The notes under the pieces were generated by a model, which was not told the DNA's origin, did not search any database, and saw nothing but the letters and a program-made list of their open reading frames with translations. A stretch of DNA of 64,000 bases, taken from Bacteroidetes bacterium B1(2017). GTDB taxonomy: Bacteria > Bacteroidota > Bacteroidia > UKL13-3. Below, piece by piece: positions 21,067 through 32,289 of the stretch. Made by a program: the position numbers and the translations under genes. Location: NCBI GenBank assembly GCA_002256395.1, contig NKJG01000007.1, positions 1-64,000 on the forward strand. The letters run 5' to 3'. How positions within the stretch are numbered: position 1 is the stretch's first letter; the number at the start of each line of letters is the position of its first letter.

Positions 21067-21187
21067 TAATATAATTAATTCAGCTTTTCCAAAAAGGCTT
21101 AATCCCTTTCAATTTACATTTTTCAATTTGATTGGATACTCAACCCTCTTTTTTGGGCACTAAAACACTCCAAAAAGAAATCAAAAT

Positions 21188-21270
21188 AGATATTTATCTA
21201 TCAATAGATATAATTCTAAAAAATTAGGGATTTTATCTATTAATGCCCTTGTTGGGCCTAGCTAGTTTTG
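21188..21270 (+). promoter_or_regulatory. Palindromic operator and promoter of the 84-residue protein gene
   Basis: An imperfect 30-bp palindrome at 21188-21217 has the core TATCTATCAATAGATA (21195-21210). A half-site TATCTATTAATG follows at 21234-21245, starting 39 bp after the core start. After 17 bp, which include a GCCC/GGGC mini-hairpin, comes TAGTTTTG (21263-21270), an exact -7 box. There is no TTTG at -33; the half-site occupies that position, as expected for an activator-dependent promoter. The same geometry recurs at 22111-22193. Confidence 0.7.
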
Positions 21271-21292
21271 TTCTCATAAAAAATTAATTCTT

Positions 21293-21547
21293 ATGAAAAC
21301 ACTTGTTTTGAACCCAACAAATGAAGGCAAATTCTACAAAAAGGAATCCTTAAAAACCAAACTTGCCCGCTTTATTGGCGAGGTAATTCTATTCTTAAAA
21401 GTAACGTATTTAACATCCGTGCTAATACTAACATGTGTTTGCATTATAGAAGTTAAGCACACTTATAAAATAGATATTTTTCCTAGCATCGATACTCCTT
21501 TCGATAACATTTATTATTCAACTGGCTTACCAACTTTATCAAACTAA
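21293..21547 (+). CDS. Small single-pass membrane protein of unknown function
   Basis: This 84-residue protein has a basic N-terminus (residues 1-30), one strong hydrophobic helix around residues 31-52 (EVILFLKVTYLTSVLILTCVCII) and a short polar tail. The positive-inside rule would place the N-terminus in the cytoplasm. No family was recognised. It stands behind a palindromic promoter shared with the gene at 22213, and three bases separate it from the downstream 140-residue gene, so those two form an operon. Confidence 0.55.
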   Translation: MKTLVLNPTNEGKFYKKESLKTKLARFIGEVILFLKVTYLTSVLILTCVCIIEVKHTYKIDIFPSIDTPFDNIYYSTGLPTLSN

Positions 21548-21550
21548 TTC

Positions 21551-21973
21551 ATGAAAGTCAGTTACAAAACCATAAATAAATCCATACGTGGTAAATTAGA
21601 TTTCTTACAGGATTTTATTGACCATTATAAAGAGAATACCAAAACCGAACTGGCCATAAACATATCCATTTGGAAGTTTTCTGAGGGTTCAACGAGGTTG
21701 GTTATTGAAACAAACCAAGAATTTGTGTTCAAAAAGGTTGTGGAGATTAACTACATCGAAATTAAATCTAAACACATTTTTATAAATTTTGAAGATATAA
21801 GCCTTGTTGCCTGTGGAACTCCAGACATATACAGAGTAATTTTTTCAATAATTAATAAATATAATTTATTGAAAATGGTTAAAAGAGAATATTTCAATCA
21901 AGAACTCCTATGGCAATTATCCAATCAAACAAGAAATACCAGCGAATTGCCCTGCTTGGAAAAAGCTAGCTAA
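21551..21973 (+). CDS. Possible LytTR-like DNA-binding regulator (tentative)
   Basis: The 140-residue product has no signal peptide. Its second half (about residues 70-125) resembles a LytTR DNA-binding domain by eye: EFVFKKVVEINYIEIKSKH corresponds to the usual IxYIEAxxxY strand pair, and LLKMVKREYFNQELL to the FxRVHRSYIVN segment. The match is weak and several core positions differ. The N-terminal 65 residues are unassigned. Cotranscribed with the 84-residue membrane protein gene, it could be the factor acting on the nearby palindromic promoters, but this is inference. Confidence 0.4.
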   Translation: MKVSYKTINKSIRGKLDFLQDFIDHYKENTKTELAINISIWKFSEGSTRLVIETNQEFVFKKVVEINYIEIKSKHIFINFEDISLVACGTPDIYRVIFSIINKYNLLKMVKREYFNQELLWQLSNQTRNTSELPCLEKAS

Positions 21974-22110
21974 GGATTTGAATACAAAAACATAAATGAA
22001 TTAGGGCTTGAAAAGGGCTTACCATCACTAAAATCAAATCCAATTTTTTATTAAAAACCAATAAAATAGCCAAGCATCTGCCTAATTATCAAAGATATAA
22101 ACCAAAATAT

Positions 22111-22193
22111 AGATAAATATCTATTAATAGATATTTATCTAAAAAAATAAATAGAATATCTATTAATGGATCGAGCGATACCAAACATTTTTG
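22111..22193 (+). promoter_or_regulatory. Perfect 30-bp palindromic operator and promoter of the 78-residue protein gene
   Basis: Positions 22111-22140 form a perfect palindrome with arms AGATAAATATCTATT and AATAGATATTTATCT. The half-site TATCTATTAATG is at 22157-22168, again starting 39 bp after the 16-bp core (22118-22133). Seventeen bp further is CATTTTTG (22186-22193), seven of eight matches to the -7 consensus. The ATG follows 19 bp downstream. The spacings are identical to those at 21188-21270, although the sequences between the motifs are unrelated. Confidence 0.72.
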
Positions 22194-22212: not shown

Positions 22213-22449
22213 ATGAAAACAGTTATTTCACCAAAAAGCACCAAAAGTGTTAAGCATAATTTCATTATTTCATGTTTAACAATTCTAACTTTTACTACCT
22301 ATAGTTTTTTTCAATTAAGCAGTTTAAAGGCCACACCCAATTCTTTTAAACCCAACAGAAAAGTTAGAATACAAAATATGCTTGAAACAAAAACTAGTCC
22401 AACCGTAAATAAAGTAGATACTAGATTTCAATTAATACTTATTGATTAG
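22213..22449 (+). CDS. Small exported or membrane protein of unknown function
   Basis: This 78-residue protein has a basic N-terminus, a hydrophobic stretch near residues 16-35 (NFIISCLTILTFTTYSFFQL) followed by SLKATPNS, which could be a signal peptide or an anchor. A Lys/Asn/Thr-rich mature part of about 40 residues follows. Its first residues (MKTVISP) recall the start of the 84-residue protein (MKTLVLNP), but the rest differs. It is expressed from the second palindromic promoter and has no recognised family. Confidence 0.5.
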   Translation: MKTVISPKSTKSVKHNFIISCLTILTFTTYSFFQLSSLKATPNSFKPNRKVRIQNMLETKTSPTVNKVDTRFQLILID

Positions 22450-22682: not shown

Positions 22683-22886
22683 ATGAAAAACCAAATTATC
22701 AAAAAATCAGTATTAACCATATTCCTAACACTTTCTATTTGCTCCTTTTCTTCATTTGCACAACCAGGATTTGAGGATGAAGTTGAAGACACTCCTATTG
22801 ATTCCAATATTTGCCTATTAGGTATGGCAGCCTTATGCTTAGGAGCTGTATCAATTCATTTTAAGAATAATAAAAAAGCAGTTTAA
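22683..22886 (+). CDS. Tiny secreted protein with PID-CTERM-like C-terminal sorting signal
   Basis: The 67-residue product has a signal peptide (residues 1-27, ending SFAQ), an acidic stretch PGFEDEVEDT, the motif Pro38-Ile39-Asp40, a hydrophobic segment at about 44-58 (LLGMAALCLGAVSIHF) and a basic end KNNKK. This tripartite tail (short motif, membrane helix, basic residues) matches the PID-CTERM type of Bacteroidota sorting domain, thought to be handled by an exosortase or similar envelope protease. The mature peptide would be only about a dozen residues before the motif. No exosortase gene is present in the window. Confidence 0.6.
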   Translation: MKNQIIKKSVLTIFLTLSICSFSSFAQPGFEDEVEDTPIDSNICLLGMAALCLGAVSIHFKNNKKAV

Positions 22887-32218: not shown

Positions 32219-32233
32219 TTTTTACCAAAAACT

Positions 32234-32273
32234 AAAAAAAGGGTCTATTTCAATTGAAATAGACCCTTTTTTT
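32234..32273. terminator. Bidirectional terminator between proS and thyA
   Basis: Arms GGGTCTATTTCAA and TTGAAATAGACCC form a perfect hairpin flanked by seven A and seven T, between convergent genes. Confidence 0.9.
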
Positions 32274-32289
32274 ATACCTACCCATTTAG

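Follow-up and report, generated by a model that had tools for sequence, protein, structure and literature searches.

A palindrome and half-site operator at about fifteen promoters of a single Bacteroidetes genome, with a candidate LuxR/NarL-type activator

Two promoters in a 64,000-nucleotide stretch of contig C44 of Bacteroidetes bacterium B1(2017) (the whole stretch is called the window here) belong to a set of about fifteen promoters that carry one operator, a palindrome followed by a half-site, at fixed distances. All sites face a downstream gene, and within the searches made the set was found in this genome only. On balance we favour the reading that these are activator-dependent sigma-A promoters specific to one species, and that the protein most likely to bind them is of the LuxR/NarL type and encoded on the same contig. 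We take the mechanism to be of a known kind, the operator and the candidate regulator being new.

Two promoters in the window share one layout

A preliminary description of this DNA had reported two palindromes, each with a half-site 39 bp after the start of the palindrome core and a -7 box 17 bp past the half-site, and its coordinates and spacings all held on reading the window. In both promoters, A and B (Table 1), the core TATCTATyAATAGATA is followed by a TATCTAT half-site at exactly +39 from the core start and by an nAnnTTTG -7 box at exactly +68, which begins 17 bp past the 12-bp half-site TATCTATTAATG. The palindrome of promoter B is perfect over 30 bp (22111-22140) and extends to 32 bp, making it the second-longest gapless perfect palindrome in the window; that of promoter A (21188-21217) is imperfect, with 22 of 30 positions unchanged in the reverse complement. 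The longest, a 42-bp perfect gapless palindrome with A and T runs at its flanks (32233-32274), looks like a bidirectional terminator. The intervening sequences had been described as unrelated, which proved wrong: the 23-bp spacers of A and B have the same base at 13 of 23 positions, TCTAAAAAA is common to both at equal offset, and TCTA and an A-tract are kept.

Table 1. Features of the two window promoters, genes preceded by the operator and neighbouring genes
Feature	Location	Strand	Remarks
Promoter A operator	21187-21210	+	outer arm TAGATA 21187-21192; core palindrome TATCTATCAATAGATA 21195-21210
Promoter A conserved TCTAAAAAA	21215-21223	+	offset +20 to +28
Promoter A half-site TATCTATTAATG	21234-21245	+	at +39; about -41 to -30 from inferred start
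Promoter A -7 box TAGTTTTG	21263-21270	+	box position -12 to -5, after PMC9723704
Promoter A transcription start	21275	+	predicted from -7 box position
Promoter B operator	22110-22141	+	32-bp perfect palindrome; core 22118-22133
Promoter B conserved stretch	22138-22147	+	TCTA 22138-22141 and A-tract 22142-22147
Promoter B half-site TATCTATTAATG	22157-22168	+	at +39
Promoter B -7 box CATTTTTG	22186-22193	+	in register, 17 bp past half-site
Promoter B transcription start	22198	+	predicted from -7 box position
84-aa protein, unit A	21293-21547	+	likely one transmembrane helix (by eye)
140-aa orphan protein	21551-21973	+	likely shares operon with 84-aa protein
78-aa protein, unit B	22213-22449	+	likely one transmembrane helix (by eye)
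67-aa protein	22683-22886	+	signal-like start, QPGFEDEVEDTPID...CLL tail; resembles PID-CTERM proteins
Candidate LuxR-type regulator	C44:118744-119361	-	206 aa from likely ATG; own gene carries site (C44:119458)
Three tandem proteins (1039, 1430, 1181 aa)	C137:634360, 630999, 626458	-	T9SS type A sorting tails; site before each
Receiver-only protein (L039)	C137:621511	+	carries site
159-aa protein	C137:687691	+	carries site
MbnP-like protein	C119:24292	+	Pfam MbnP E 5.8e-41; below NCBIfam MbnP equivalog cut-off
Six-member helical family	C9:87183, C9:752001, C9:813528, C113:525884, C113:455894(-), C174:30413(-)		site before each

The composite site recurs across the genome

The genome comprises 5.5 Mb in 225 contigs, with an assembly contamination estimate of 7.13%; the sites nonetheless lie on several large contigs, and the six-member family, which six of them precede, is shared across the genus. 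Taken singly, the parts of the site are not or hardly above chance. In the window, the core alone with three mismatches gave 9 matches against 4.7 expected, and the half-site with two mismatches gave 23 against 15.6. Genome-wide, the core with two mismatches was hardly enriched, at 51 matches (27 + 24) versus 43 in the control (23 + 20), and among these matches are a cluster on C137 and, ahead of the regulator gene, a third locus where two matches lie 39 bp apart. The composite of core, N23 and TATCTAT, allowing three mismatches, matched 18 times versus once in the control, some of the 18 being one palindrome counted on both strands. Adding TCTA and AA to the pattern gave 15 places on six contigs (three on C9, three on C44, two on C113, one on C119, five on C137 and one on C174) and none with the reversed control; TCTA and AA were picked from the sites themselves, so their conservation is partly a product of that choice. 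The 32-bp palindrome with up to three mismatches was found at 6 places, all within the 15, and nowhere in the control. When the gap between A-tract and TATCTA was left free at 0-25 bp, 17 matches were obtained versus 2 in the control: three are palindrome self-matches, 13 of the other 14 have the half-site at +39, and one (C202:229804) has another gap.

Independent of these patterns is the -7 box. TTTG, absent from every search pattern, stands at exactly +72 in 13 of the 15 sites, and the next-best of the 210 offsets compared (-40 to +169) has it in 1 of 15. At a background of 0.0093 per base, the chance of this register is ~8e-23 with all sites counted (13/15), ~6e-15 with close paralogue groups counted once (9/11) and ~4e-9 with the six-member family and the three tandem C137 genes taken as one each (6/8), the paralogue groups being our own lists. 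An A at +69, likewise part of no pattern, is present in all 15. The two sites that miss TTTG at +72 are those of the regulator gene (CAATTTGC, with TTTG one base early) and of the receiver-only gene (GACCTTCG). Selection on the geometry, suggested earlier from A and B, is supported by the 13 other sites, which all have the +39 spacing and of which 11 also have TTTG in register.

Likely gene starts lie ~80 to 235 bp past the core start. Only two open reading frames of at least 60 aa span a whole site, one being the downstream frame extended upstream (L034) and the other a 96-aa antisense frame (L042); three further overlaps are the starts of downstream frames. Many copies in one genome only is also what dispersed MITE-like repeats lying before genes by accident would give, but we regard this origin as hardly credible: all 15 copies face a downstream gene, 13 have the -7 box in register, and the likeness is limited to operator positions, the bases in between differing save in tandem or paralogous genes.

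Operator structure and promoter anatomy

The consensus of the 15 sites is TAGATAaaTATCTATnaaTaGATAtttaTCTAAAAAAaTagataaaaTATCTATnaATcaag, followed by ~14 weakly conserved bases and nAnnTTTGT. All 15 sites have TCTA and also A at each position from +26 to +28; of these bases, only the A at +28 lay outside the search pattern. The first 11 bases of the core (TATCTATnaAT) recur in the half-site, which from this likeness looks like a true half of the core site. The core itself reads TATCTAT-nA-nTAGATA in the consensus, that is, two inverted heptamers with a 2-bp gap (7-2-7). The heptamer consensus of NarL is TACYYMT, a sequence with no occurrence in the text of PMC2718512, and TATCTAT fits six of its seven positions. 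Operators of NarL and NarP are described as 7-2-7 inverted repeats of heptamers with a 2-bp gap in PMC9314961 and PMC2718512. The alignment of sites would be equally compatible with a tandem arrangement of three TAGATA-n2/3-TATCTA dimer sites, centred at about -1.5, 16.5 and 37 in core offsets and so 18 and 20.5 bp apart, the left arm of the third being weakly conserved.

A -33 element is part of the Bacteroidota sigma-A promoter, and the consensus of the 15 sites has no TTG-like columns at +44 to +52, the region of the half-site. The -7 box at +68, nAnnTTTG in 13 of 15, agrees with the sigma-A box TAnnTTTG and resembles the Bacteroidota sigma-A promoters treated in PMC9723704 in having AnnTTTG at a fixed place, but it differs from them in that the first T is kept in 2 of 15 sites only and no -33 element is conserved. 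The loss of this T together with the want of a conserved -33 element is as expected of activator-dependent promoters. At the regulator gene (the promoter of L020:4742-5398, reverse strand), the box CAATTTGC fits AnnTTGY better than AnnTTTG; TAnnTTGY is the variant box of motif SM5 of Flavobacterium psychrophilum in the same paper.

Since the sigma-A box of Flavobacterium is placed at -12 to -5 in that source (PMC9723704), transcription would start at offset +80; the centre of the palindrome would then be at -72.5, and the half-site heptamer would span -41 to -35. The best reading, in our view, is that the half-site replaces the -33 element and is bound by an activator. A dimeric (or higher-order) DNA-binding protein would occupy the palindrome near -72.5, a further subunit would sit on the half-site where the -33 element would otherwise be, and the bound protein would hold RNA polymerase at the weakened -7 box in a recruitment resembling class II.

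We infer activation rather than repression, and the half-site over the -33 region could serve either. As repressor operators, the sites would be occupied by one dimer at the palindrome and one more subunit across the -33 region, which would suit the overlap of the half-site with the place where a sigma factor would contact the -33 element. We consider this unlikely: with no conserved -33 element and a -7 box below consensus the promoters would be weak unaided, and the position of the palindrome, about -72.5, is a common one for activators, as with the single NarL sites at -77.5, -66.5 or -44.5 that activate three ogt-derived promoters in PMC9314961. A recognition sequence of an alternative sigma factor, made up of the half-site and the -7 box, would account for the rigid spacing of TATCTAT and nAnnTTTG, but we give it little credence: conservation is just as strong in the palindrome and A-tract, beyond any sigma footprint, and the -7 box agrees with TAnnTTTG.

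The target genes are of some eight unrelated kinds

The genes behind promoters A and B had been described as an island of small genes with a candidate regulator in one of the two units. The regulon is broader, including large T9SS-tailed proteins and a family of six paralogues, and the 140-aa protein of unit A gave no regulator domain on scanning Pfam and NCBIfam; a better candidate lies ~97 kb off on the same contig. The 140-aa protein has one weak match (E 0.0075) among 61 relatives, and the 84-aa protein before it is without a match in Pfam and NCBIfam scans. The 67-aa protein is possibly part of unit B, from which a 233-bp gap separates it. An NCBIfam scan gave no match for it; a similar PID-CTERM-like protein (L021:135-362) scored 20.3 in NCBIfam, where the cut-off is 26. 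These two short QPGF-D-VEDTPID proteins thus lie near two units of the regulon.

The three tandem targets on C137 belong to a four-gene array (L021:752-16202, reverse strand) whose products, of 1039-1430 aa, are large and end in T9SS sorting tails; the operator stands before three of the four genes. Pfam was run on two of the three targets and NCBIfam on two; both of the Pfam-scanned targets also show G8 below the cut-off, as do three Pfam-scanned members of the array of four. The gene at C137:626458 is followed by a helix-turn-helix gene (L021:363-749) and the PID-CTERM-like protein. The gene after that for the MbnP-like protein looks by eye like a cytochrome c peroxidase. The only other match in the genome to the family of the 159-aa target (E <= 1e-6) is C44:117711-118151 (L127), the convergent neighbour of the regulator gene, and it is not among the genes of the 15 sites.

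For the helical family, a profile search (E <= 1e-5) finds exactly six members in the genome, and all six carry the site. AlphaFold2, run from 13 sequences, gave an all-helical model with a mean pLDDT of 81.3, for which Foldseek against the PDB returned no match at E <= 0.001; nothing above the cut-off was found in Pfam and NCBIfam for the three members scanned.

A candidate regulator with a pseudo-receiver

Eleven of the 15 first genes were scanned with Pfam or NCBIfam (the other four are paralogues of two scanned ones), and a DNA-binding domain was recognised in the LuxR-type gene only. Its product has a C-terminal GerE/LuxR helix-turn-helix (Pfam E 3.7e-13, residues 156-205 of the 218-aa frame), and a sequence search of the PDB gave nine matches, including VpsT (the best), GerE, DesR and NarL. 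The c-di-GMP motif of VpsT is W[FLM][TS]R; the translation of the candidate contains no tryptophan and so is without it. A model predicted from the single sequence was poor (mean pLDDT 42) and was set aside.

In an alignment with five homologues (5 of 10 chosen loci), the receiver of the candidate has EP for DD, G for the phosphorylated Asp, A for Thr and Y for Lys. A canonical response-regulator receiver has the five active-site residues DD, D, T/S and K, and by the definition in PMC12632262 the domain classes, from its sequence, as an aspartate-less pseudo-receiver. Control by abundance is one possibility that this source names for pseudo-receivers, and regulation of the candidate by its abundance would fit. 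Because its own gene carries the site and its receiver is without a phosphorylatable Asp, the candidate would be autoregulated and phosphorylation-independent. The LuxR-type gene is the best candidate for an autoregulated activator.

A target gene can also encode a regulator other than the binder. The same activator-dependent regulon might be run by another protein, the LuxR-type gene being merely one target, and we rate this as a serious if lesser alternative. The promoter of the LuxR-type gene, like just one other, does not have TTTG in register and so is among the two worst fits at the -7 box, which counts against its being the regulator; a second signalling gene, the receiver-only L039, is also targeted; a helix-turn-helix gene (L021:363-749) lies near the end of the C137 cluster; and the genome has three further LuxR-type matches. 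Against this, the LuxR-type gene is alone among the scanned first genes in its recognised DNA-binding domain, its protein is about as private to the genome as the site, and the 7-2-7 layout of the operator is one known from the family to which the protein belongs. Among family genomes, 41 of 62 (own included) have a match to the candidate at E <= 1e-4, as expected of a common helix-turn-helix family; the best-scoring match from any other genome has 27% identity across residues 3-198, and short ones limited to the helix-turn-helix reach 43%. In genome_contigs, where single-protein queries reach close relatives only, the one relative found is weak and partial (Fibrella aquatilis, 30% over 63 residues).

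The operator was found in one species

Copies in close relatives, to which the preliminary description had looked for support, did not appear: the site is absent from 18 congeners bar one match at chance level. With three mismatches, the composite had a single weak match among the 63 family relatives, in G010, versus 1 in the control; among 394 other Bacteroidota, two genomes had a weak match apiece, versus 2 in the control. We judge these matches to be chance. An exact 21-base version, which fits 11 of the 15 own sites, gave no match in genome_contigs, from which records very near this genome may be excluded. A viral origin was considered and set aside: the one exact match in viral_contigs (L074) lies in AT-rich DNA with no -7 box in register by eye and was judged chance. 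From these searches we read the regulon as restricted to one species and, from the promoter sequences, as probably activator-dependent. The regulator and the operator have the same narrow distribution, as a regulator-operator pair predicts, which is not proof of the pairing.

Of 63 family genomes, 11 have relatives of the six-member family, and 14 copies were located in other genomes (two of the 14 loci clipped by contig ends); in the stretches read ahead of these copies, TATCTA was confined to four loci, where it lies just within the gene. Scanning 11 relatives for ATTTG-N5/11-CAAAT gave no support for a parallel regulon run from another operator in the sister species. The inverted repeat ATTTGyGAAATATGCAAAT stands upstream of four six-member-family relatives (L076, L077, L078 and L088, in G004, G006 and G007) and is a possible different operator in sister species. 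The other seven of the 11 are without it, L080 having an unlike match ~590 bp upstream, and it is absent before five relatives of the 159-aa target (L124, L125, L126, L128 and L129, in G001, G006 and G007), three of which have scattered ATTTG...CAAAT matches of other make-up.

We tentatively suggest, as a scenario somewhat short of probable, that one species evolved or acquired a phosphorylation-independent pseudo-receiver regulator together with its multi-element operator, and that the pair took over ~15 promoters of some eight unrelated kinds of gene, among them all copies of the expanded six-member family and a tandem array of T9SS-tailed proteins; in the sister species, relatives of that family would have stayed behind upstream sequences of another make-up.

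Relation to known systems and significance

No paper in the open-licence PMC full texts was found for the operator sequence, for PID-CTERM or for a Bacteroidetes LuxR-family regulon with a palindromic half-site. A close parallel is with NarL/NarP of E. coli (FixJ/LuxR-type), as described in the sources cited above, which share the 7-2-7 core with the present operator, here in a palindrome at about -72.5 with a half-site at -41 to -35. However, the heptamer here is TATCTAT, a single half-site lies over the -33 region at a rigid +39, the candidate has a dead receiver, and both phylum and promoter type are different. VpsT and CsgD resemble the candidate in their LuxR-type helix-turn-helix and, following PMC12632262, in an atypical receiver. 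Both control matrix or biofilm genes, VpsT according to a title in the reference list of PMC12632262 and CsgD according to PMC7380067. Unlike VpsT, whose likeness is in the helix-turn-helix only, the candidate is without the tryptophan motif, and the target families differ. Within the same phylum, the PorY-PorX-SigP system of Porphyromonas gingivalis also ties regulation to T9SS (PMC4800418), but there an ECF sigma factor acts on the secretion machine, whereas here the targets are T9SS-tailed and have sigma-A-like -7 boxes.

For one Bacteroidota genome there are now 15 targets, a candidate regulator and an operator of exactly defined geometry, which makes activator-dependent initiation without a -33 element directly testable. 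One switch links uncharacterised surface-type and helical proteins, and a regulon seen in a single genome among those searched is a clean case for asking how a regulator can quickly gain many unrelated promoters and still keep one rigid layout. If the capture scenario is true, a complete regulon, from its regulator and operator to the fixed spacing, would have been built within the lifetime of one species.
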